Below are positions 1,656 through 25,200 of a stretch of 64,000 bases of DNA, in pieces. Made by a program: the position numbers and the translations under genes. The notes under the pieces are model-generated. The model searched no databases and was not told the origin of the DNA. It saw only the letters and a list, made by a program, of their open reading frames with translations. How positions within the stretch are numbered: position 1 is the stretch's first letter; the number at the start of each line of letters is the position of its first letter. This DNA is from Desarmillaria ectypa (taxonomy: Eukaryota; Basidiomycota; Agaricomycetes; Agaricales; Physalacriaceae), in assembly GCA_030407005.1 (NCBI GenBank), contig JAUDYN010000003.1, forward strand, positions 2,170,001-2,234,000, in the 5' to 3' direction.

Positions 1656-3578
1656 TTACCGACGAGGCATACCCCTTCCCCTTCCCCTCAGCGCTCTTTG
1701 TGCAGTACCCGGTGGCACTTTCGGGCCCGTATTTTGCTGATATTCCATGGTCAACAATTTACATGTAAATTCAGAACACATGGATGCATACCTGTTCGCT
1801 TTGTGGATTCCTTACGGTCTCATCGACACTTAATATCAAACAGGCTGCCTCAGTAGCGCTGCTAATCGCATTGAGTTTAACCAGGCTGGGTTCCCACACA
1901 AACGCATCCATGTTGTCCCGGACGCCAGTGGCTCCGTCGACGTCAACACCGACCCATTTGTCACCGTTCGCATGCTTCATCCGCAGTTTGTTGAGAATAT
2001 CGGTGGAATCAAGACCTGCGTTGTCACAAATTTGACGGGGGATAATCTCTAAAGCCTTTGCGAATGCAGTCATTATCAGCTGCTGCTTTCCGGGGATGGA
2101 GAGCGCGTGTTTTCGAATATGGGCAGACAAGTCCATCTGTCAATGTCTCGTCAGCGATGCTTCTACACAATGTGAACAATACAATACCTCGATTGCGCCT
2201 CCTCCCGCGACAACATCCCCATTCCGAATAGCACGCTTCACCACCATGATTGCATCGTGCAAACTTCTCTCCACTTCCTCAATAAACTGGTCGGCGCCAC
2301 CACGAAGAAGAAGAGTGCAAGTCTTCGCCTTAGGACAGTCTTCAAATACATTATATCTTTCACCGCCTATTTGCCTCTCTTCAAATCGCCCGCATGTGCC
2401 AAGGTGCTCCCGTGCGATGTCAGAACAAGTTGACTGGATGGAACCGCCCACGGCCTGCACTACTCGGCGAAGATCACCTGCTGCAACACGTCCAGCGCAG
2501 AATATATCTCGATCCGCAAAATACTGAGTCGCGAGATCACCGATTGGAAGTTTACTGAGAACAACCTTGGCGCCAGTGTTCTCGATGGCCTCCAACTTTC
2601 GATAGATGATCTCCCACTCAGCGTCTACGATGGCTTGGTAGTCAGAAACAGCCTCCACCCGCACTTCGGCGTTATCCTTCTCGGCCTTGAGCTCCAACTC
2701 GACGTTGAGACATAAAATAAGGGGATCACGGAAAGATTTGGGCTGTTGCTCTGCACCAGCATACGTGAATGTTTTCTTGAATGAAACACCTTTGATGAGA
2801 AGAGAATCCTGCATCCCGCCACCGGCGATCTTTTTTACTCCAACAAGAGACTCGTCCAATTCGTCCTGATCAAGGCATTGAACAGCGTCTACAACCATGT
2901 TGGAAAAGAAGGGTTTTTCGGAGTGAATTAGTTTTGAAGACATGGACGTTGATGCACATTTTAGAAGTAGAGACCGGAATCGCCTGCAAGAAAACATTGT
3001 AGTTAGCATTACAACCATAGGCAGGCATTTACATACTCTGGGTCAGCTTTATCCACTGTGACTTGTATCAATTTGATTCGTTCAATAGCCTGGATGAAAC
3101 GTACGTTAAGTGCTCCAAACCATAGCACTAGAAACGTACGATCTGGGAAGCTTTCCTAAAGCCTTTCATGATTATATGCGGACTGACGCCTTCTTCGATG
3201 TAACCTCTGACTTCCTTTAACAACTGGGCTGCGAATAATACCACACTTGTCGTTCCGTCCCCCACTTCAGCGTCCTGGGCGCGAGCAATGTCGACAAGAG
3301 TTCGAGCGGCGGGGTGTACAATATCCAGGAGCTTGAGGATGGTCGCACCATCGTTCGTGATCTGAGCCTCACCACGTTCTGAAACAATGAGTTTATCCAT
3401 TCCCCGAGGACCGAGAGTACTGGACAATGTTTCCGCGACGGCCAGGCATGCAGAAATGTTGGAAAGCAGCTGAGGATTTCCTTGCGATGTGTCTGTACCC
3501 TCACGAAGAAGGACGACGGTCGGTTGCTGAATAAAAATTTAGAGATAAAAGCCGTGAGCTGGTTTTCGGACGAACCAT
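1656..3578 (-). CDS. CCT7: T-complex protein 1 subunit eta (chaperonin CCT7)
   Basis: This is a subunit of the cytosolic TRiC/CCT ring that folds actin and tubulin using ATP. Exons are 3578-3576, 3526-3140, 3089-3037, 2983-2188, 2136-1792 and 1736-1656. They sum to 1665 nt, giving 554 residues, close to the family's usual ~550. Visible motifs are [34 protein letters not shown] (the ATP and hydrolysis loop), [20 protein letters not shown] and RQICDNAG. The C-terminus ends in an RGRGRG-type tail, as in eta subunits. The first coding exon is only the ATG: a 49-nt intron follows and the next exon opens with [16 protein letters not shown], the conserved eta N-terminus. The gene is divergent from RAD5, with 158 bp between start codons. 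Confidence 0.95.
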
Positions 3579-3736: not shown

Positions 3737-6700
3737 ATGGAACCAGATGGTACCAAAGGAAATGCGGAGGACCTTTTTTTTGCTGGCTCCGATGATGAGT
3801 CCGCTGCTGGGGATGCTCCCATGAACATCGAGGAGGTGACACACATGCCTCAGAGACGAAATTCGGAGCAGCTTTTTCGGGGTAACGAAGATTCTGGCGA
3901 TGACCGTAATACAAGCAAAGTATCCATGAATCTGGACGAAGGGACTCATGATATCATGCAAAGGTCGTGTTCGGAGCCTCTCTTTTTGGAGGATAGTGAA
4001 GACGACGAGCCCTTGTATCCTATTGCTCCCTCGTCCTCGTTAAAAGGAAAACGGCCTATGATAGAGGAACTGTGCGACAGCGACATTAAGGTTAGTTCTG
4101 TTGCAGACGTTTCTCGGGCGTCGAGCGCCAGTCCTCTCTCAGATCGGGTCTCCGTTTCTCCTCCACCCATCACCGAGAAGAGCAAAGAAAGGAGGTCTCC
4201 CGAGAAGCCGCCGGTAAAGAAGAGAAAGCTTTCGCACCCTCTCGGTTCACCGACCGTCGAGCTAGATATCACTCTGTTTAAAGCCACCTACATCGGCGAG
4301 TTCGTGGTTCCAAACGCATGGAGTAATGTCTCTGGAAAGGGATATGTAAAGCGCAATAATATTGTGCGCATAGAACGCGATCAAAAGGATGCATCGCAGT
4401 CCAGCTCCAGCGAGAGGAAGGGGAAGCCGACCACGAAAGGGAATGGGAAGAAACAGCTCTCCATCGCGACAATGTTCAAGCCTCAACCTGTGCAACCATC
4501 CAAAAAGAAAGCGAACAGCATTGTTCGTTTGCTTAACAGTCATGGGTTCGGTATGTCCCTTTGACCACCTTTCCTTGCTCCATTTTGATCTTTGTAGAGT
4601 TTGGGCGTCTTCCCCAAGACATTTCTTCTTGGGTTTCTAAGCTTCTTGATCTCGGTATGCTTACACTATATATTATTCGAAGCTATCTTCATGTATTTCC
4701 AGGCATCGTCGAACTTCGCGGAAAGATGACTGACTGTCCTGAGAGATTATCAACAGGTGCAAGTCTCGTCGTTACCATTGATGTCTATATGCTCCCGGCT
4801 GCATTCGTCCCTGTTGGTCGCAGCACAAGTGAAGATTGGTCGAAATTAAATTTTAGCGAAGGTTCCGAGACGCAAGGAGAACTGGACCTTCGCGAACGAA
4901 AGAGCGCTATTCTCAAAATGTTTGACGTTCTTGGCCTAAAGCCCCAAGCTGGGGCGATACAGAGAGGCGGGAAACAGGAAGGACAATTGCACCAGAACGC
5001 ACTTGCGCAGCTCGGTAGACAAAAGGTCAAGGCTAAGGAAATTGTCGGTGACGATGAAGAGATTGAGGTTGAAGAGGAGGAAAATCTCTCTAAGAATGAT
5101 CTCGACATGATATATGAAAAGTGAGCTTTCCTGCGGTGCTCTCATTCCAGCCAAGCTCATATCCATTTCAGGGCTCAGCAAAGCGACCGTACAATGGGAG
5201 AAACGGAGCCCGCTGACACGTTCAATCTATCGTTACGAGGTTATCAAAAACAAGCGTTATTGTAGGTTGCATACTCTCACTCGACATTCCTATCCTAACC
5301 TTCGTAGTTGGATGCAATCTCTAGAGTCGGGTAAAAACGATGCTCGAGAGGCAACTTCAATGCACCCACTCTGGTGCCAGTAAGCTACATCTTATTCTTC
5401 TTCCCAGCCCACTCTCATGCTATCTAGGTATGCATTTCCGATCAAAATCGACTCCGACATAATAGATTTGACGGAAAATGAGAAGCCGTTTTATTTCAAT
5501 CCGTACTCGGGTGAACTGAGTTTGACTTTTCCCAAGGCAGGAAGAAATTGCCGGGGTGGAATCCTTGCGTACGTCTGCAAATGTATGCCAATATGAGCAG
5601 ATATTGACTTATGGTAGGGACGGTACGCGTTCTCAATGTATCTCTTATTTATGTCTCTCATGATTCTTTCAACGATTATTTCTGTCAACCAGAAAGTAAG
5701 TGCAATTGTGTGTAAAATACGAACTGGTCTAACATATCCGATCAGTGGGCATGGGCAAAACGTATGCATGATGTTCTGATCTAAATGCCTGGTCTAACTG
5801 TTCCCGATAGGATCATGCTGTCTTCTCTCATTCATACCCACTTAGCGTCTGATGAGGACGTATCCGAAATTGCTACAGCCTCTACAAATAGCAAGCAACT
5901 CAGGCTTGACGCTGCGTTCAAGCGCGCTGCTCGCAGGAAGCCCTCTAAACCTCCTAATGCAACACTAATCGTCGCTCCGACATCTCTACTCGGGCAATGG
6001 GCGGATGAGATGGAGAGGTCAAGTAAACAGGGCACGGTCAAAGTTCAGGTTTGGCATGGCCAAAATCGTCTCGATTTGGACGCAGCGATGGAAGGTGACG
6101 AGGGCGATACATCGATCAAGATTATCGTGACTTCCTATGGTGTGCTGGTGTCCGAGCACGCCAAGTCTGAGAAATCCAGTAATTGGAATTCTCCTATTTT
6201 TGAGAGTGAGAGATGCTTTGTCCTCAGCGCCGGACTGTCCTATTCATAATGTTGTTTGTAGCCGAGTGGCTACGAGTAGTCTTAGATGAGGCTCATGCCT
6301 GTAAATCGCGGACCAGTAAAACCGCCAAGGCAGTGTACGCATTACGCGCGAGACGAAGATGGGCTGTTACCGGTACGTTCTTACTACAATGAACAACCTC
6401 TTCTCGGCTGATAACCCGCGACAGGCACACCTATAGTGAACAAATTAGAGGATCTCTTTTCTCTTCTGTGAGACTCTGTTCGCCATCCGGTGTAGCTAAC
6501 CTAATTTTCTTTAGACGATTCTTGGACTTCAAGCCATGGTCCGATTTCTCCTTCTTTCGATCGTGGGTTTTCTGATTTATGCGTAGCGTAGTCTCTAAAC
6601 ATTTGCAGATTCATTACGATTCCCTTCCTCGCCCGTGATCCCAAAGCCATCGAGGTTGTTCAGGTGATCCTAGAGTCAGTATTATTGCGGCGCGAGAAGA

Positions 6701-8329
6701 ACACATGCGATGCAAATGGTAAAAAAATCGTGGATCTACCTTCCAAGGAAGTAAGTAATTGAATGTATCACACGGATAGAAGAAAGCATGAACTCTTTCC
6801 TAGGTGGTTGTTGAGAACCTGGAATTTTCGATGGCTGAAAGGAAGCTATATGATTCGATCTATAATTCGATAAAGAGGAACTTCGATCAGCTTAGCGCTA
6901 AAGGTTTGATTGGAAAGAATTACACGCACATCTTGGCGATGCTGATGAGGTTTACCGCTCAACTTGCTCGTTTAAAAGAAACTAACCTGATTGGGTGACA
7001 GGTTGCGTCGTGCTGTGCTTCACCCAAGTCTTGTCCTTTCACCTGAGGAAGACCGCGCCTTGTCTCCGTCCGGTGATGGCTTCATAGAAATTAAAGATAT
7101 CCTTGGCGCATTCCAGGAGAATGAGGGGGGTAGTGCTTCAGGAAGCAACGTCTTCGCTCAAAATGCTCTTGCCAATCTGGGAGAGGACGCTCCAGAATGT
7201 CCCATCTGTATGGATGCTATGGATAAACCTATGCTTATTCCAGAATGCATGCATCAGTGGTAAGCGATTAATGCTGTCACATGAGGCTGTGCTACTGAAA
7301 AGAATTTTGCGGAAGTTGCAAAGACTGTATAAATATGTTCGTAGCAACATGTGAAGAGAAGGGACAGGAACCTGGCTGTCCGACCTGTTCCCGTTGTCCG
7401 ATCAAGGTAGCGCGTAAGCCTCATTTATAGCTCTGGTAACTCACTCACATGGTTCCTACAGATAAATGAACTCATAGAAGTAGTAAAACCACAAAACTCA
7501 ACAGTCTCTGGACTTGCGGCCAAACAAGGCACCGAAGTCATACTCCGAAAGAATAATTTCCAGTCTTCCACTAAGCTTGATGCCTTGCTGCAGAACCTAC
7601 GTTCGTCTGTTTCTCTTATCTGCTATGGCGAAGATTAATTGATTAGTACAGTACGACTCCGTGACCAAGACCCTTGTTTTCGTGCTGTCGTTTTCTCTCA
7701 GTTCACCTCGTTCCTCGATCTGATTGAAAAAGTGCTCAAACGTGATCGGTTTGACTTCTATCGTTTCGATGGTTCTATGGATGTCAAGAAAAGAACTGCG
7801 GCTCTAAATGACTTCAAGTCAACGTCAAGGACACCAAAGGTGCTCATTGTGAGCCTTAAAGCAGGGGGTGTTGGTTTGAATGTAACTTGCCAAACATATT
7901 GTGATTGCATGCACAACTCATTTTTCTACGTCTCAGCTAACGAACGCTAATCATGTTTTCATGGCACGTACCCTATTTTATGATCAAAATCGCTATTTAC
8001 ATTGAGTATTTGATCATCTCGCACTTAGATGGACTGTTGGTGGAACGCAGCCACCGAAAATCAAGGTGCGCATCAACCTTGCGAGCCTAAACTTGTCACT
8101 CATTCTAACACTTCACGTTCTGGATCCAGCCATCGACCGAGTCCATCGTTTGGGACAACAGAAAACTGTCTATGTCAAGCACTTTATTATAACTAATACT
8201 ATCGAAGGCAGGATTCTACAAATCCAGAAACGAAAAACTGCCATCGTGAAGGAGGCTTTCAGAGGAAGCGGTACAGGAGCAGAGAAAGAGAGCTTGGAAA
8301 ATCTGAAGATCATGTTCGGGGACGAGTAG
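3737..8329 (+). CDS. RAD5: RAD5 family DNA helicase / E3 ubiquitin ligase (HIRAN-SNF2-RING)
   Basis: Rad5 acts in post-replication repair: it polyubiquitinates PCNA and remodels stalled forks. I rebuilt 22 exons: 3737-4550, 4598-4654, 4703-5120, 5172-5261, 5308-5379, 5428-5568, 5618-5622, 5693-5695, 5746-5761, 5811-6205, 6262-6372, 6425-6467, 6515-6562, 6609-6750, 6804-6949, 7002-7259, 7316-7406, 7462-7600, 7652-7881, 7937-7963, 8029-8065 and 8130-8329. They sum to 3483 nt, 1160 residues. In order: an acidic disordered N-terminus; a HIRAN domain (about 173-325); motif I ADEMGMGKT (about 530); the DEAH box in [24 protein letters not shown]; a C3HC4 RING from CPIC (about 900) through CMHQCCKDC to CPTC; then [11 protein letters not shown] and RVHRLGQQ of helicase motifs V and VI. 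Motif I spans two microexons (5618-5622 and 5693-5695). The intron at 7964 has a GC donor. Microexon coordinates are inferred from conservation. Confidence 0.93.
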
Positions 8330-9839: not shown

Positions 9840-12800
9840 ATGTCTGGCAAGACGTTAGAACGTTCTGACCTCATTGATGTGTATGCTCTCGTCTAATCCG
9901 CGTCTTTAATATCTCACATAGTTTGCCACTCCAGGTCATATTCTCAGCTGCACGATTTCTTGTCCGGGCGCCTTGAGGGCACATCTCCAGAGCAGGTCAA
10001 GGGATATCTGGCGCCAAGAGTCGACCAGCTGAAGTTGCTCAAAGATCCTTTTGGAAAACCCTCCGGAGCATCGCGGAAACGGATTCAGAGTGGGACGGTG
10101 ACTTTGAGCGATGGTGTGGTGTTCCATTTGGAGGATTCTGATAAGGATTACATTCTTGGAATCAGCGATGCGTTCAAGATTGATGAAGTCAGCGCATTTA
10201 TTCTTTTGCGGTCATTCATGTACAACCAAGGATTGCCTGCCACAGACAAGGACGAGTTCTTGGTGGAGGCATGCGTTGAGGCCATCACCCCGTTCTATCT
10301 CTCGGAACGTATCGCTATTTTCCGCGTTCTTATACCTCTTTTCCGCGCCAAAGAGGACCCTACCGACCCTGCATTCGAAATTTCACGCACATTCCTAGGC
10401 AAGATAATTTCTGACGGCCCAAAATTTGTCGAGTCTCTTCTAACGGAGTATGCTCGTAAAATGAAGGAGAGGCTGGATGAAAAAGTGACAACAGACCCAA
10501 GGACAGCATCGAAATGGGCGAAACAGAATATGAAGGAGCAGCTTGTCATGTTGGAGGTGTTGTTTTGGACGATGTGGGGGTCAGTTGCCTGTGACGGTTC
10601 GACAGTGGAGAAGATTTTCACCTCCGCTTACACGACAAATCTTGGTACCACGCAGCAGAATGCAGCGTTATTGCTGGACGAGGACGCTCTCCAGCTGCAA
10701 CAAGACATTACGTCTCTTTGGGTCCTCATAACCATCGAAGTTCTCGAACTGGAGACATTAGCAGATGCCGGCGTCGTTGAAATATCCGATACTCCTTCAC
10801 AGACTGACTTGTACACCTCTTCCCCTGCATCACTCAAGCGAATCCATGATCTCGTCATGTCCAATAATGGCAGTCATTTCGCATGTACCTATCTAGCATG
10901 GACCTCCGTCGTCTCTCGTGTATCGGCAGTGGCGGCTGAAGTCAAGGAGATCCCTGATTCTCATCGTCCGTTTTTAGACTCCCTGGTACCCCAAACGAAT
11001 CGTTATTGCAAGGATCGTGAACCACCGCACGTTATGATGCTGAAGACATGCTTGTCACCCAATACTGGTCTATTCCGACTTATGCTAAATTTGCTCACTA
11101 CAATGCCCTTATTCGTCACCTCCGTTGCCATGAAGACAGACTCATCAGTCACAGACACGAATGCTATTGCATTCAGGTCTGTTTTCAAGGGTACGCGTCG
11201 TCTGACAGTATATATATGCAAATGGACTGAATTCATCATCAGGGCTTATCATTGCTTTACTTGACCTCACGTCTGTGGAAAACATTCCGGACTTTGACTC
11301 TTTCGTCGAGGTGTGGATAGCACTATTTGGCCGAAGTGAGAGTAGATCGGTTGCTGGTATATGCAGCCAGTACTGGCAGTTTGACTGGGAGTATGGACCG
11401 GCGCGTCGTGCTATATTTGACGTGGCCCGCTCTCGATTCCCAATCCAAGTCAGGCCTTTGGTTCGCTTAGCCAGAGGGATGACTGCTTCAGGCTTCTTGG
11501 ACACTGACCCGCTCTGTACACCGGATGAAACACAATCTGTTTTCGGGCTCACAGGAGACAGAGACTTATGCGATCGTCACGTCTTCTTCTTCCTCGAAAA
11601 CTTACCAACATACTCTCAGGTCATTCCATTACATACTTGTACTGGCTCCCATGCTATGTACGAAAGGGTCCCAGAGAGATATGGGTCCTCGTCGTCACTG
11701 GGCCTGTCTTACACTAATTCGAGGCCTATCATCCTGCCTGGCGGCAGCGTACTACCACCCGGATCTATAGGCCGAGTGCTCAGTGGTGATGGAGGCGAGT
11801 TGCTTGCGATCTGTTGGAGTCATCAGCATTCCGGTTGGAAACTGATGCTCGACATATTGGCTGATTATGTCAAACGCCGAAATGCGTACCCTGGTGCTAG
11901 AAAAACTCCACGTCCGTCACCGTCTGATCGTCATTCTCCATTTCCTCTGACCATTGAGGACTCTGGCGTGGAAATGGATGGCAGAATCGACGAAGCTCTG
12001 ATTACGGATATTTTGGACCTCATACGAAGTCTCATCCAAGACAATCCTACCCAAGCAGAGCAGCTCTTACAATCGCTAGAGGTTGATGTTCCAGTTTCGA
12101 AGTTCATGTCTGATTCTGGGCCCCCCGATCTGGTACAGCTTACCATGACGATCCTCGAGGAGACCTTTACAAGCATCAATCAGCGCCCCAAATCCGCTCT
12201 TCCAACGCAACTCATAACGTCGGCCATGAGTGTGCTTGCAGCCATCCTCGCTATTCCTCGCTACTCCACTCGTGTCTGGATTTATATGAGGTCAACATCG
12301 GTCCTTTTCGGGGCAGGACAGTCACTAGGGTCAATGTTCGCGGCGTTGGCTGCTGAGCGAATTACTGGTCGTTATACAGTCACTCTCGCTCTCTTGCATC
12401 TCGCCCAGCAGCTGTTCCACGATGCGACAACCTTGGTCATCCCAGAGGATCCACATGTTCGCAAGTTGAAGGCCGAAGTACTTCTTCGAGCCACTGAATT
12501 CATTCATAATGAGATATGGGTGGAGCATCTTGGATGGCGATATGCCCGTGTCGGTGATCGTTTCGACATCGGCAGGCATGTGGCGTCTCTCTTCGTCAAA
12601 GTGCTGGAGCATACACCAGAGGCACCAGAAGATGGTCCGTTTGTCGACCTAAGCCGCGCGGTTTTGGATTTGGTCCTGGCAAAGGCAACAAACTCTACTA
12701 TTATCCCTTTGGTCTCATCTATCACCGCTGGCAGACATATGCTTCAAAGCCTATATGCGTCTCGTCGGAAGGCTGATGCCAAAAGAGTCATCCTTCTCCT

Positions 12801-15800
12801 GGAATCCCAGCTTCGATTGACGCGCCTGGTTCTGAATCGGAAGCGTACCCTCAGTGATTCGTCGAAACTCTGTTTGTTAGAACAAGTTCTTTGCTCTCGG
12901 GTCACCGATGGCGCTGCTTCCGATCCCTATCAATCAAGGGTAGAACCCATTGACGTCTTAGCATCATATGTCAAAGAACGCGACGTCGGCAGTCTCGTCC
13001 CCATCGAAGCCATTCGTATTATGTCTTGTCTCTGCGACTCTCTATCTTCCCAAACATCGGTACCAGCTATCGTAAGGCATTTGGCAGATCCCGAGGCAAC
13101 GGCGGCATCCCTCGTGCGCATCGTGCAACATCCCTACGAGGACTTATCCTTGCGATTTGAGGTCTGGAACTTCATTGCTTTGGCGATGAACACAGAACCG
13201 GCCTTAGCTAAGGTGTTTGTTGTGGGACAGTTCCGCACTCCAAGTGACATCAAAGGCAAAGGAAAGGAGACTGATGTTAAAGCTCCCTCGGTCACAAGTG
13301 CAATCGATGTTGCCTGTGACATGATTGAAAACTGGCAAGGACTATGGGAACACAACCCTCAACTGCTCTCCTCCATTCTTCGTTTCCTTGATGTTACCTG
13401 GCAGCATGGATTAGAACACAAGCTCATTTTGGACCAACGATTCCGTGACGATACAGAGTTTTGGTCTCAGGTTGCATCGGTGGCGTGCTCTGATCTTGGG
13501 CCACTTCCAGTATTCGATGCAGAGGAATATGTGTATATCGACGGCATTCGACACTCTACGATGCATGAAACCGTTTCATCGCATTCATATCGCATTGCTG
13601 CTAAGGCATACGCTCTTCATATCCTTGGCCTTGACATTGGTCAATCATATACCAAGGATACACCGTCTAAGAAGTCTGCAAGCTTTAAGAGCATGGAGGA
13701 TCGATTTAGATCGGAAGACGAGCTAACTGATCTTTTGTCAGAGGCTGTGGCAAGTTCCTATCGACCGGAGTTATTCGATGGTTTCGAGGAAATACTGAAG
13801 AACGACTTCCCCGGTCTCGCAGTTGCCCAGCTTCAATCCCGGGATCCTTTAGAGGATCGTGAATATGGCGACGATTTTTCACTGTCGGCATCTTTACTCC
13901 GCAGTCGTCTCAAAGGGTATCACTACGCGGACGCCATGGTTGACCCTGTTGAAAGGGTCGAACAACAGCTTCTTTCAATCAATTTGAATCAGTCCTTGTC
14001 ACACAGTCAAATGCGGCTCACGGAGAGCGCTCGATTCCTGCTGAGCCAGGTTAGTCCCTACCTTCGTGGTGACGCAGCAGCCAGGCCGATTCTCGTTTCA
14101 ATTGCTTCGTCCATCTCCTATGATCTTGCACGAGAAGCGCGCCTCGGTGATATGGTAGCTACCATTCATGGAAAGCGTTTGTCGCTACTTCTTGCCATTC
14201 TGGAAGTGGCGTGGTTCTCTACGCCAGAGAAGCCGGCTGACATTAAATCGTTCGTTGAGTTGGTTGATAATGTGCGAGGAATCATCCTGAATGAATATCA
14301 GCTCCCGTCGGCATCTTTTCTCGGATCGCTCACGGTTCCGTTCCATCACACACTCTTGCAGATATTGTATTTCTGCGCCAAAAACTCTAGAACGCTTGCC
14401 CGACGGCCAAAACTTCTAAACGCTGATCAACGATTGACGATCTCCCAGATGATCGAAGCGTCCTTGAATACTGTCATCGACGCGATGCGCGTGGTGCTTG
14501 CCGCCGCGAGAAGCAGAGCCGACGCGGAGCTGGATCGAGACCTTGAGCTTTTAGTCTCTGTATTCGAACAATGTTCACGGCCCGACATCAATCCTTCACC
14601 CTCTATATGGTTAGCCAAATGCCAGGAGACAAATATTGTTGCAGCCAGTTTGCAGCTTTTCGCCCGTATCGACCTTGTCGGTCTCTCAGACCTGCCTCTT
14701 CTAGTTACGCGACACACCCCACTCTACGTTCCACACCTACTCTTATTCCACATGGCGCTTGCGAGTATTCCTTCGGCTGCGGAGAGACTAGCTAGCGACG
14801 GTGTTCTTGCTGCCTATAGCAATAACATGATCAGCCCAGCTATCAGCGCTGGGTTAATTGATGTCGATATAGCAGAGCTGACCGGGGAACGCAGTCCCGC
14901 TCATTATGTGTATTGCTCTATGCTGGCGGTAGTGTCGGGCGTGATAGGTGCTTTAGGAAGTAACAGTCACTATTTCGACGCGGAAGCATGCGGATTGGCG
15001 CAGCTGTATAGCGGCCAGATCACTCGTGCGTTATCATGGAGTGTCGGAGACGTCATCTCTCTGCCTCTCCTTGAAGAAATTGAACAGGTCGTCCATTTCT
15101 TCTATTCCGTTGCAGAAAGCAGTCCTCCTATCCCCAATCAGAACACAATGGTCGAAAAAACTCTCAGACTATTCACACACCACGCACTACATCTGATACA
15201 GCAGCTCAACTATGCCATCACACATCCCAACCAGTTGGCTAGCTTATTTGAGCCTGTGACGAAAGAGGAGCAAACATTGTTGGTCGACAATGACCCTCCT
15301 GCTTCTGATCCTTTGAAGCGACCGCTCGTCGTGCATCTGGTGCATCGACTTTATCGACTGTCGAGCAACATTATCGCTACATTGATTAGCATTAGTCAAG
15401 CGTTCACTGTACTGTCAGGAGAGCAGGATGATTGGCCCGTTCAAGAAGCCTTCGTTGTACCGGTCCGTATACTCTGATATGGTTTTCTTCTAGTGACTGA
15501 ATTGATTTACAGCACTCGAAAGTGGTGTTGGGCGAGCCCGCATCTTTGGGAACCCTGCTAGAGCTAGGCAACTCTACCTTGGACCTGCTGAAAGAGCTAG
15601 TCGGACTGCCACCTGGCCAGAGTCTTGTTGCCATGGGTGCTGTTCTATCAAGCAAATATGGAAACACCTTAGATGTCCGACAGGGAATTATCACGGCGCG
15701 GTGCAATCTTGAAGGGATTTTGATTTACGCAGGCACTCAGCTTGCTATGTGGCTTTCAAAGCCAGACTTTGAAGCCAACACTACTGATGTGGACATGGAT

Positions 15801-19228: not shown

Positions 19229-22200
19229 ATGGCATCGTCCCAGGTTGCCTCCCCCGTTATCCCCACATTTTCTGGTCCAGTATCTCGTTCCAGAAGCAGC
19301 ACGAAGCTCGTCGACGCCGACGTCACTAGCCTTACCACTTTCAATCCCTTTTCAGAAGAAGACGAGAATGATCAATCGTCTTATACTTTGGTTACTTCTC
19401 TTTTTTCAAAGGTGAAGAACTCCTTTTCTACTCCTCTGTCCGCCGTCACAGCAACACCGGCGCATACTGGCAACATAAATGGAGCTACCGTCAATGTCGA
19501 GCCCAGGCGTCCGTCTCACACCCTCAACACTCAATCTAGTTATTCCTCGCGAGGCTCGACAAACGAGCGACTCAACCCCCTAGCTCCGAACCAGTCTATT
19601 CCGGCCCCACCATTGGTATCTCTCACACCAGCTCAATCCGAGCTCCCAGTCTACAATACAGAGTATGACAGATCACCTTCACGGGGAATGTTCTACTCTC
19701 CTATTTACGACTCTACCGATGGCGGAATATTTGGAACTACTATCCCGGGATTTCCAATACAGGATGACGCACGAAGTGTCAAGACCTCGGCTAGCTTGCA
19801 TAGGTCAGGTTCGGTGTCAAAGGTTATCCGGCGGATACGGGGCGAAGGTGAGACCTTTCTCTACAACGTGCCCTTCTTCATATGCCAAGGCCCAGAAAGG
19901 CAGCGGAATGTGGATAATTCGTGTAATATAATGTGACCAATGTACTGACCTCGTTGCAGGTCTATCCCGGGATTATTGGATGGATGACGAGAATTGTAAG
20001 GAGTGTTATGATTGCAAGAGTATATTTACGACCTGGCGGAGAAAACACCATTGTCGTATATGTGGTATGTCACCTGTGCTTCATCCTTTCGTTATCTGAT
20101 AGCTCGTAGGGCAAATATTTTGTTCTCGTTGTGCCTCCAACATTATCAAGGGCTCCCGATTTGGACACGATGGGATGGTCCGCGTGTGCAATTTGTGTTT
20201 AGAGAAACTCGCCAAGGTCGACGACTCTGACGACGATGATAGGCGTTCCGTAGTGTCGTCTGTAATGTCATTTCCGGCACATCAAGTGGGAGAGACCATG
20301 ACCCTAGCCCATCATCCTCAGTCACCCTTTGCTGCATCCCAATTGTTTGGGCGTACCGATGAACCTTTCAATCTTTACTCAATCGCCGAGACTAAAAGAC
20401 GTATCTCGGGCTCCGACGAGAGTGGGTTCACCTCTCGACCAATTACACCACAACTTCGAGAGCGCAATGATGGCATGTGGGAATCTCCCGAGGAAACTTC
20501 TGCGCCGTTCCGTAGGGGAGTGTCTGATGAGGAAAAGGAGCGTGATGTCTTTGAGGCTACTGGATTTCCTGCGTCGCAGACGCCAATCGAGTTTCCTACC
20601 ATGCCTGATGTAGACTCACTGACTAGCTCGATTCAGTTTCCAATGGGGTCTCCAGAACATGGTGGCCAGGATAGTCCATTGCCAGTAAGCAGGATGAGGT
20701 CGCGGTTAAATTCGTTGACTGCATCCACGCCTTTCATTCGTAGCCGGGTTCAGAGTCGATTGGATAACGTTGCGACTGGCGAGCCCGGCTGGCGTGCCCG
20801 AAGGGAGAGTACTGCGTATGTGAAATGTATCATCATGATTAACACCCTTATCTCACATAATCTTTAGATATGCGCAAGAGCTCAACTTGACCTCGATGCA
20901 CCATCTAAGAATCATGCTCCGACAAATGCTTTCCAGCGAGCAGGTTCCCAACATGAAAGAATGGGAGGAGACGCTACTCAAACTAGCCCTCCGAATCACA
21001 CGTGATTTGACATTCACCTCTCTTCCTCATCGACAGGGCCAAGATATGGATGTTAGGCGGTACGTCAAGATCAAAAAGATCCCCGGAGGCACTCCACAGG
21101 ACTCTGAATATGTTGATGGTGCTGTCATAACCAAAAACGTTGCACACAAACACATGTTGCGGTCCCAACGCAATCCCCGTGTTATGCTTGTAACGTTTCC
21201 TCTGGAATTTTCACGTGTCGAAGGGCAGTACATGCACTTTGGGCAAATTGTGCGTCAGGAGAAAGAATACCTGGGAAATTTAGCGACGCGGATCGCCGCC
21301 CTTCGGCCTCATGTTGTGTTGGTGGAGAAGTCCGTTTCTCGTCTTGCTTTGGAGGCTCTTGCGGGATACAACATTGCAGTGGCTCGTGCTGTGAAGCCGT
21401 CGGCAATTCAGTTGGTGGCGCGAATGACTCAGGGCGACGTTTTTTCATCCATTGATAAGTTGGCGCTGGAACCTCGCTTGGGTCACTGTCAGCGGTATCG
21501 TATACAGACATACGATCACCCACTAATACCCGGGCGCCGCAAGTCTTACATGCGATTTGAGGGATGCAATCATGACATGGGTTGCACAATCATCTTGCGT
21601 GGAGATGATATCAGTACTCTCCGGCGAATCAAGAAGGTCACACGCTTTCTCATTTTCATAGTCAGGAACTTGAAGCTGGAGACTCATCTGTGGAAGGATT
21701 CCGTTATTACACTTCCTCCACTTAACACCGAGACTGTTCCGTCATCCCCAAGCACTCGCCATGCACCCTCAAATTATTCAGTTACTTCTTTTCTAACTTT
21801 TGGATCCTCCACGTCTACTCCGCGAGGCGCATCACCGACCTTCGAGCTTAGCTTGTCCAGACCGGAAACAGTGGTTGCAGACAAGCATCCATTTGAAGAC
21901 GACGACCTTCCTGATGATGATGCTGAACAGCTCAAATTATCACGGCGTATCGACGAGTCATTGGAGCCATACACAACCACATTCATATCAGTCTCTGCGA
22001 TGCTTCGTTTCCCACCTCCTTTTCCCATACGACGAATGAAGGAGTTAGACGTTGAATTACTGGCTGCGAAAAGGGCCTGGGAAGACGAAGTGATCCGGTT
22101 GGAGGAGAAACAGGAAGTCAAACATGAACAAGAGCCGACGATAACGCCGAGCAGTACGGTGACTCCGCATCTCGATAATAATGAGGAGGCCGAACAGGAC

Positions 22201-25200
22201 GATATTTCCGAACAAGACGATATTAAAGCACAAATTGAAGCACTTCCCGCAATTCCTATGACCATAACTCCCAGCGCACATACACCTATGTCTCCTTCCA
22301 AAGATCATGACAGTTACTTTCGTATCAATGCTTCGGCCTTCGCCTCGACCGCTACCAGCCCTGCCGAAGAGCCGATGGAAGCACTGAAAACTCCAGCCGA
22401 TATTGCCTTGGAAAGCCAATACAGTTTGGTGAAGTGTAAACATGAAGAACATCGGCGTATATGGGAGTGGTACTTGCGGAAGAACTACGATGACTTTGTC
22501 GTCGAGAAGTATCAGTGCATGAGGTTGTTGGAGTATACAGTCCCCATTGCCGATTTTGGTTTCCATCGTGCTTGCTTTGCGCCCAAATCCAGTTATATCA
22601 CATTCTACGGAGAGAACGATTGCACACTGGGCCAGTATGTTGAGGAATCTGTCACGGAGACGCTCGTTCAGTTCTTAGATCCTAAAGCCATATGCACGGG
22701 CAAAGGATGCGACCAGCCTTTGGCACGTCACTGTAAGGTCTTCGTTCACAACGAGACCAAGGTATTTGTTGCCGTTGAACAATGGGACGGACAGATCATC
22801 GGGCGGTCGAACTTCTCGCCTGCCCCGGAGCTCATAACAACATGGAGCGCATGTCGGATCTGTGGAGCTGCTACACCCTTCATACCGGTTTCGGAGGAAA
22901 TGCAAAGATACTCTTTTGCCAAGTTTCTTGAACTTCATTTCTATCCTACAGATGTGAAGTTGGTCCAAGGTGCTGGATGTCAGCACAACATCTATCAGCA
23001 CCACGTTCGCTACTTTGCGTGCAAAGGCATGACTGTGCGCTTCCAGGCCGATGCGGTTACCCTGCACGAGGTTGTATACCCTCCCTTCCGCATCCGCGTC
23101 CGACCGGAAACGCAACTTGAGTTGAAGAACAGCGACTTCAATCGTTTGCATCACCGTAACTTGTTCTGGTACACAGGCTTGATAGATGATCTCAAGCTCA
23201 TCAGTATTGATGCTGCCACTGGAGACGAGGATGGTGATGCCAAACTTTTGGCCGATATCAACATGTTGATAGCCAGGGCAGAGGCGGAAAGAGAGGATAT
23301 TAGCAGGCTAATCAACCGTGTATATAGGGAGTCAGCACCTACGGATACTCTTGCACTTAACCAAGTGCGTTCGTACCGACAGGACAAGATTGTCGCTTGG
23401 CAGCAAGACTTCGATCGTCTTCCCAAGCCGCGGTCCCTGCCTGCTGCGGATAGGTCTAACCGCAGAGCGTCGGCTTTTGGGTCTGTTCGCGCGATGTGGC
23501 CAAGGCGGTCTGGAACGTTTGACCTGCCTCACCTGCCTTCTTCGAGCGTGTCGGAGGCGGAGGAGGGCCCGCTTAAGATGCGGCGAGTTACTGGTGATTC
23601 TCTTGCATCTTCTGCATCTGAAGCCTCCGAACCGGAGACTTCTGCGGAGCCGGTTGAGACAGTAGATCAGCCATGCACAGACATTCAGCCTAGCCAGGAT
23701 ACATTTGCGACGGACAACGCAAGTCTTGCTCCTAGAACTTCTGACGACAAGCATAAGTCCGATCCTGATTCGGACTCTACCATTGGCGCAGCGAGAGATG
23801 ATGCCATTTCTCCTGAATTTTCCATGCCTCAAATGGTTAGTCATAAGTCAAGCTTTACGCACTATACAGCTGTTAACGCCATCGTAGGGAGAGTCTCGTG
23901 CACAACATATGTCCAGATTACCTCGGAGACCTGACCGCCAGCCCAGTGTTGCGGAGTTAGTCAAGAGATACCAAGATTACCTACCAGCTCAAGGCGTACA
24001 CGACTTAACAAAAACTGCACTTGCGCCTCGCATTGTGGTTTCCGAAAGTGATCAAGAGTATACTGTCCCTGTTGTCCCTCGGAACGTCACTCGTGCCAAA
24101 AGCAGACATCGTCCGCTTGCAAAGAAACCCTCTACATCTGATTTTGAACATAGCTATGCAGCGAATATTGCACCGCGTTATCTTACCCACACAAGAAGGT
24201 CGCTTGGTCAAGGGTCTCAAGGCACTCGCATACCTGGACCAATTCATCATGGGTCACGTGATTCATCTCGGCGTCCTTCACCGGAAAAACGTTCTGTCAG
24301 TGGTAGAGGCAAGGAATTGAAGTTGAACCGTCCCTCATCACCTTCGAACTTCAAGGTACTATCACCCACACCTCTCGGACTTAAAAGCGGACGGTCAAGG
24401 TTATTGAACCGGTCGAAAGACAAGACTCCGGCACGATCTGCGCCTAGTACTGGGACCAAATCCACGCTTCGTAGTAGGCCAGCTGGGACTCCAGGAGGAA
24501 AGGTTTCCAACATTGCTAAACATTTTGAGCGTTTGGGTCGTGATGCCGAGCGATCCAAAAGCCGTTACAACGTTATTCGGGGACGGCGTGCTCGGCCTGT
24601 TGGTTCGGCACGGGCTCGTGTCGAGGTCCTGGACAGTGTGAAAGACGCTATCAATGATGAGTCTGAAAGTTCAGATTCAAGTAGTGAAGCTGATGACGAA
24701 GGGGACGGCAATGAAGAACCAACTGTTGCAGAGCCCATGAAGCAAACCGAAACGCACGGTGACGAATCACCCAAAGAAAGTGTTGCCGTTCAGACTGCAC
24801 CTCCCACCTCTACCACTTTCTCCGTTGATTCATCAGATGCTAGTGATAAAAGTCCTGATGACCAAACGAAACCTGGCCCTATTTCTCTTCCACCTTCACC
24901 ATTCTTGAAGATGGACAATAATATGCCGTTAACTCCGCCACACTCAGACATTGAAATGGGAGCAGGTACAGAGCGCAATCCCATTCTCAAAGCTTTGTCA
25001 GGATTTTGGCTTCAACCTCCGCTGGCATCTCGCAGTGCTTTTGAAGGAGATGATCCTATGAGTGATCCGGAGCACATATTTCGGGATTCTTCCATGGTCG
25101 TCCGTACTGACGAGCCAACTTCTATCATTGCGCTTGCCTTGAAGTAAGCAATGACTATCTGCGATGATTTGCAACTGAAGTACCTACAGCTCACCTCAAT

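Follow-up and report, generated by a model that had tools for sequence, protein, structure and literature searches.

Three consecutive microexons across SNF2 motif I of a RAD5 gene in the mushroom Desarmillaria ectypa

Exons of one or a few nucleotides have been described in both fungi and plants. Fusarium CYP621A P450 genes contain a single-nucleotide exon that was confirmed there by RNA reads (PMC12940212). Like the RAD5 exons described below, it is a fungal ultra-small exon in a conserved motif for which nearly all the public models listed in that report are wrong, but CYP621A has one 1-nt exon in an ascomycete P450, whereas RAD5 of the basidiomycete D. ectypa would, as read from the genome, have exons of 5, 3 and 16 nt in a row in a DNA-repair ATPase (PMC12940212). 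Arabidopsis APC11 also has a single-nucleotide exon, for which intron definition with recursive, stepwise removal was favoured (PMC4674806); it resembles RAD5 in that the ultra-small exons of both appear to be constitutive, although APC11 is a plant gene tested experimentally in that study and RAD5 is known from sequence. Plant microexons are conserved, lie in protein motifs, are mostly absent from annotations and include an adjacent 5- and 12-nt pair (PMC8831610). They share with the RAD5 exons small size, location in conserved motifs and misannotation, but were defined from RNA-seq, whereas those of fungal RAD5 are inferred from homologous sequences (PMC8831610). Among basidiomycetes, Phanerochaete P450 genes have short introns (45-55 bp) and tiny exons like RAD5, with a shortest exon of 6 bp (2 aa) compared to 3 nt in RAD5 (PMC1184071). 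Finally, in fungal stwintrons (spliceosomal twin introns), neighbouring short introns are removed consecutively by intron definition (PMC6616335). The inner intron of a stwintron splits a splice signal, whereas the four RAD5 introns each have complete GT and AG ends of their own with exonic bases between them, and so do not form a stwintron (PMC6616335). The locus likewise differs from a zero-length recursive splicing site (AG|GT), as 5 and 3 nt separate acceptor and donor.

Published work already covers conserved motifs that contain microexons, the misannotation of such exons, and exons of 1 nt (in a plant and in Fusarium). No fungal RAD5 microexon was found in the open-licence literature among the matches listed. 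Relative to those matches, what is new is the RAD5 case and how widely it appears to extend in Agaricomycetes, how many of the examined public models are wrong, and the intron hotspot in SNF2 motif I of D. ectypa.

The window analysed here is a 64,000-nt stretch of the D. ectypa genome. The RAD5 coding sequence in this window (3483 nt, 1160 aa) has no internal stop in the full 22-exon model, in agreement with the preliminary description of this DNA, which had called the model in frame. HIRAN, SNF2 ATPase, RING and helicase C domains (PF08797, PF00176, PF00097 and PF00271, all above cut-off) occur together in one protein, as in a RAD5-type SNF2 ATPase, and motif I of the SNF2 domain is complete once spliced. 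The best solved relative is Rad5 6l8n (E 1.4e-141), which we take to be the Kluyveromyces lactis protein; the alignment spans residues 259-1157, GGILADEMGLGKT included. The protein is ordinary; its gene structure alone is unusual. Besides motif I, introns interrupt motif III and border motifs V and VI. Adjoining RAD5 on the minus strand is a TCP-1/cpn60 chaperonin gene (2140-3018); elsewhere in the window, Nup188 domains in two large open frames (9960-15477) mark a nuclear-pore protein gene, and a TCP-1/cpn60 domain covers part of a long open frame at 20887-23934. The features of RAD5 that concern motif I, together with one unusual intron, are as follows.

3737..8329, plus strand: RAD5 gene, 22 exons, 1160 aa (gene model, Pfam domains, match to solved Rad5 6l8n)
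5428..5568, plus strand: exon 6, 141 nt, ending in GGIL + GC, with the A codon split (phase 2)
5569..5617, plus strand: intron, 49 nt, GTACGT...TAG
5618..5622, plus strand: exon 7, 5-nt microexon GGACG, which completes A, encodes D and opens E with one base
5623..5692, plus strand: intron, 70 nt, GTACGC...CAG, with the second-highest donor score of the gene and a weak acceptor
5693..5695, plus strand: exon 8, 3-nt microexon AAA, which completes E and opens M with one base
5696..5745, plus strand: intron, 50 nt, GTAAGT...CAG, with the highest donor score and the lowest acceptor score of the gene
5746..5761, plus strand: exon 9, 16-nt microexon TGGGCATGGGCAAAAC, which completes M with two bases and carries G-M-G-K and two bases of T (Walker A)
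5762..5810, plus strand: intron, 49 nt, GTATGC...TAG
5811..6205, plus strand: exon 10, 395 nt (gene model), continuing the protein with an 11-residue segment
7964..8028, plus strand: GC-AG intron, GCACGT...TAG; the public D. ectypa model (P0001) also deviates around there

The joined exons give GGILA-DEMGMGKT, reading A-D-E-M-G-M-G-K-T-I, and the coordinates, the four intron lengths (49, 70, 50 and 49 nt), the GT and AG ends and this join all reproduce what the preliminary description had reported. Defined as internal exons of at most 15 nt with their own splice sites, microexons are present here as the 5-nt and 3-nt exons, each with GT-AG introns on both sides. The proposal that these two encode the most essential residues of the ATPase needs correction: they supply D, E and parts of A and M, and the Walker A lysine comes from the 16-nt exon; we add that this exon is also a microexon, carrying the Walker A residues G-M-G-K.

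Enumeration of splicing paths between fixed flanks, each path being allowed at most four GT-AG introns of 35-200 nt, yielded 205 open in-frame paths, just one of which reached GGILADE[ML]GxGKT, bearing out the earlier proposal of a sole path that rebuilds SNF2 motif I. Lowering the minimum intron to 30 nt in a later enumeration gave 249 open paths. An alternative 3-nt exon, TAA, which would give DVM, was an open path but did not restore motif I. In dinucleotide-preserving shuffles of 5569-5745, with intron 5762-5810 held as spliced and up to three introns allowed, the motif was rebuilt in 1 of 20,000 with a minimum intron of 35 nt and in 2 of 5,000 with a minimum of 20 nt. Path enumeration and shuffles together rule out a chance reading: the microexon structure is present and is the sole enumerated path to the motif. 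That four junctions should cluster in 24 coding nucleotides is uncommon without being extreme; at a simulated P of 0.006 for a gene with 21 randomly placed introns, it is moderately unlikely and by itself weak evidence.

A decayed gene whose bases fall together by chance, or a sequencing artefact, could be invoked because the reading requires two extremely small exons and because another RAD5 intron is GC-AG (7964-8028; the other 20 of 21 are GT-AG). We regard this as extremely improbable given the rarity of the motif in the longer series of shuffles, the 1160-aa frame without a stop, the 92% identity of two relatives (P0003 and P0004) over residues 440-1160, and the break at the same spot in Armillaria and Desarmillaria models from other genomes. 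The same two relatives read a 16-residue segment matching removal of the GC-AG intron. One RAD5 copy was found, which also speaks against decay or artefact: exon 10 has a single match in the 40.6-Mb assembly, ruling out a second copy with an uninterrupted motif.

Comparison with relatives revealed that spliced sequences and most of the public models examined disagree at motif I. Three protein searches (best 120 of 5000, of 153 and of 7952 matches) gave 188 distinct RAD5 homologues, 177 of them NCBI-named, which we took as genome-annotated, and 11 from lgn or jgi sources; motif I classes were assigned by applying patterns to pairwise alignments. The set keeps partial, fused and redundant models (P0116, P0117 and P0139 are all Dichomitus squalens), and the counts include three that are odd or partial (P0167, P0169 and P0170). 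DEMGMGKT was found in all 11 lgn/jgi sequences among the 188 homologues listed. Seven of these (P0003, P0004, P0059, P0081, P0102, P0143 and P0186) have contigs that are 100-361 nt longer than the coding sequence, compared to an intron total of 1110 nt in the 21 introns of D. ectypa RAD5. Such contigs cannot accommodate 21 introns of about 50 nt, so these seven are spliced sequences and presumably transcript assemblies. The remaining four (P0010, P0179, P0085 and P0101) have 11,643, 2,635, 731 and 419 nt beyond the coding sequence, so the contig-length argument applies to the other seven. The residues encoded by the microexons are therefore found in all 11 lgn/jgi sequences, including the seven without room for introns.

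By contrast, motif I (DExGxGKT) was intact in 29 of the 177 NCBI-named models and wrong or incomplete in the other 148. The commonest exact error was DVGMGKT or a close variant (43 models), and VGMGKT followed other wrong residues in 45; a further 24 kept GMGKT alone, 12 kept EM after wrong residues, nine had another residue before MGMGKT, and 15 showed no Walker A under the pattern applied. The closest annotated protein, P0001, a RAD5-like protein of D. ectypa itself (98% identity over the searched region), has YVCKL in place of DEM, corresponding to a single 163-nt intron (5583-5745) that swallows both tiny exons. This confirms the expectation in the preliminary description that gene finders would miss the microexons, but not that they would call the gene broken; P0001 keeps its frame, which makes the wrong motif I harder to notice. 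Models reading GGILA-YV, -FV or -LV would fit donor read-through at GC|GT, the start of the intron that creates the 5-nt exon, and GACG joined directly to TGGGC without AAA gives DVGMGKT.

The reading frame constrains which exons could be left out. The three microexons sum to 24 nt, a multiple of three, so the frame is kept when AAA or all three are omitted; it is shifted by omission of the 5-nt exon alone, of both tiny exons or of the 16-nt exon alone. The possibility that the 3-nt exon is normally skipped, giving a mature protein with GGILADVGMGKT, draws on this, on the weak acceptor before AAA and on the 43 NCBI-named models with the skip form. It nevertheless appears very unlikely, since none of the 11 lgn/jgi sequences has that form, since the conserved E before the P-loop would be lost although solved Rad5 keeps it, and since models of close relatives fail in various ways at one spot, as expected of annotation error. 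A search with the skip form itself as query (best 120 of 153 matches) also returned only intact motifs among lgn/jgi sequences (8 of 8). A regulated switch, in which some transcripts omit AAA or all three microexons to yield an ATPase-dead RAD5 in some conditions, would be equally compatible with the frame, and a regulated 20-nt microexon has been described in a fungus, in Trichoderma Xlr2 (PMC11121469). Neither skip form occurs in the 11 lgn/jgi sequences, and we consider such a switch unlikely, while recognizing that a single assembled sequence for each cluster is poor evidence on minor forms. The reading that we favour, and consider highly probable from sequence, is a working RAD5 gene in which four short introns split motif I into three consecutive constitutive microexons of 5, 3 and 16 nt.

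The most likely mechanism for constitutive inclusion of these microexons would be removal of the 49-70-nt introns by intron definition, in succession. U1 bound at the donor AAA|GTAAGT would cover the entire 3-nt exon, which presumably could not hold U1 and the 3'-splice-site factors of the preceding intron at the same time; because the two could not share the exon, the introns would be removed stepwise. Splice-site scores, computed against the other introns of the gene, showed that the donors after the 5-nt and 3-nt exons score 8.7 and 9.2, second and first among the 21 RAD5 introns, and these strong donors on the two introns after the tiny exons would drive stepwise removal. Against the microexon reading stands the weakness of the acceptors before the 3-nt exon (1.7) and the 16-nt exon (0.8, the lowest among the 21). 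A branch-like CTAAC lies 13 nt from the end of both introns 5696-5745 and 5762-5810; in intron 5623-5692, the sole branch-like match by the pattern used is CTCAT, 32 nt from its end. How a 3-nt exon is recognized, which had been called mechanistically puzzling, is less so in view of the published 1-nt exons (PMC4674806, PMC12940212) and of the consecutive removal of short fungal introns by intron definition (PMC6616335).

The annotation errors also bear on the age of the 3-nt exon. Since DVGMGKT corresponds to omission of AAA, each model with this error points to the same two phase-1 introns. Such models occur in Tulasnella calospora (P0127), Botryobasidium (P0171), Ramaria (P0131), Sistotremastrum (P0148) and Sanghuangporus (P0174), as well as in Suillus and Trametes; many further ones are from species that we take to be Agaricales. 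With the error found from Tulasnella and Ramaria through to Agaricales, the 3-nt exon probably dates back as far as the Agaricomycetes themselves, and it and its two phase-1 introns would trace to an early Agaricomycete, with the intron positions of relatives deduced from protein models. The early date depends on a few models (P0127, P0171, P0131 and P0148), and the matches listed reach Agaricomycetes only, so that the age is bounded from one side. For the 5-nt exon, a further intron at GC|G would be required; the pattern expected from reading through it appears in other genera too. Several Tulasnella models (P0164, P0165, P0166, P0168 and P0172) and one from Exidia (P0185) have an intact motif I, behind which may lie either correct annotation or, in some species, loss of the motif I introns.

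Analysis of the other SNF2 genes of D. ectypa revealed that introns in motif I extend beyond RAD5. We read the motif in 20 other loci (L009-L028), leaving out five places with PF00176 (four on contig C28, one on C12). Of the 20, 18 require one or more GT-AG introns of 47-63 nt within ADEMGLGKT, a stretch of nine codons, with L013 and L017 alone uninterrupted. These introns occupy many different sites in all three phases. With RAD5 included, the preferred readings give 25 introns that fall on 14 different sites across 21 x 27 nt, or 24 on 13 sites without the first intron of L018, which is ambiguous (six paths); the best reading of L018 has a 23-nt exon. This density is about 44 per kb, compared to 6.0 per kb across RAD5 as a whole. 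Two of the minus-strand loci have further small exons. L025, Rad26/ERCC6-like by best solved matches, has a candidate 1-nt exon (G), flanked by introns of 57 and 52 nt, on the sole enumerated GT-AG path to GGLLGDDMGLGKTIQV, and L028 has a 6-nt exon, GGTTTG, which encodes G-L of Walker A and is flanked by introns of 52 and 56 nt, on the sole enumerated path to ADAMGLGKT.

Other motifs served as a rough control across the 21 loci, by pattern matching with one mismatch allowed, so that misses reflect divergence or introns. Motifs II, III, V and VI were contiguous by pattern in 15, 16, 12 and 17 loci, compared to four for motif I, three of which have an intron at the last codon; L033 is contiguous at motif I though missed by the pattern. 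Fisher tests gave p of 9e-5 (II), 2.5e-5 (III), 0.0025 (V) and 6e-6 (VI) when motif I was counted as contiguous in 2 of 21, and 0.0016, 5e-4, 0.025 and 1e-4, respectively, when it was counted as 4 of 21. In this one genome, motif I stands out for introns, least clearly against motif V.

Why motif I should stand out is a matter of speculation. SNF2 paralogues have common introns that predate the last common ancestor of eukaryotes (PMC9120149), and these could explain part of the hotspot; the many different sites suggest that introns were gained too. Microexons are perhaps favoured where introns interrupt conserved motifs, as remarked for P450 genes (PMC12940212). A bolder idea, that motif I is an intron and microexon hotspot of mushrooms kept to make the catalytic site depend on complete and accurate splicing, seems to us unlikely; old SNF2 introns that were simply inherited would explain the hotspot more plainly. 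If the bolder idea were true, almost every SNF2 enzyme would lack its P-loop whenever its transcript stayed unspliced or was spliced wrongly, and omission of the 24-nt block of three RAD5 microexons would give, in frame, an ATPase-dead protein.

The wrong motif I in public models of RAD5, an ATPase central to DNA-damage tolerance, would mislead structure prediction, functional comparison and cloning. The 3-nt exon, which from sequence appears both constitutive and old, would offer an accessible system for how the spliceosome handles minute exons, and the SNF2 hotspot makes it testable whether catalytic motifs collect introns.
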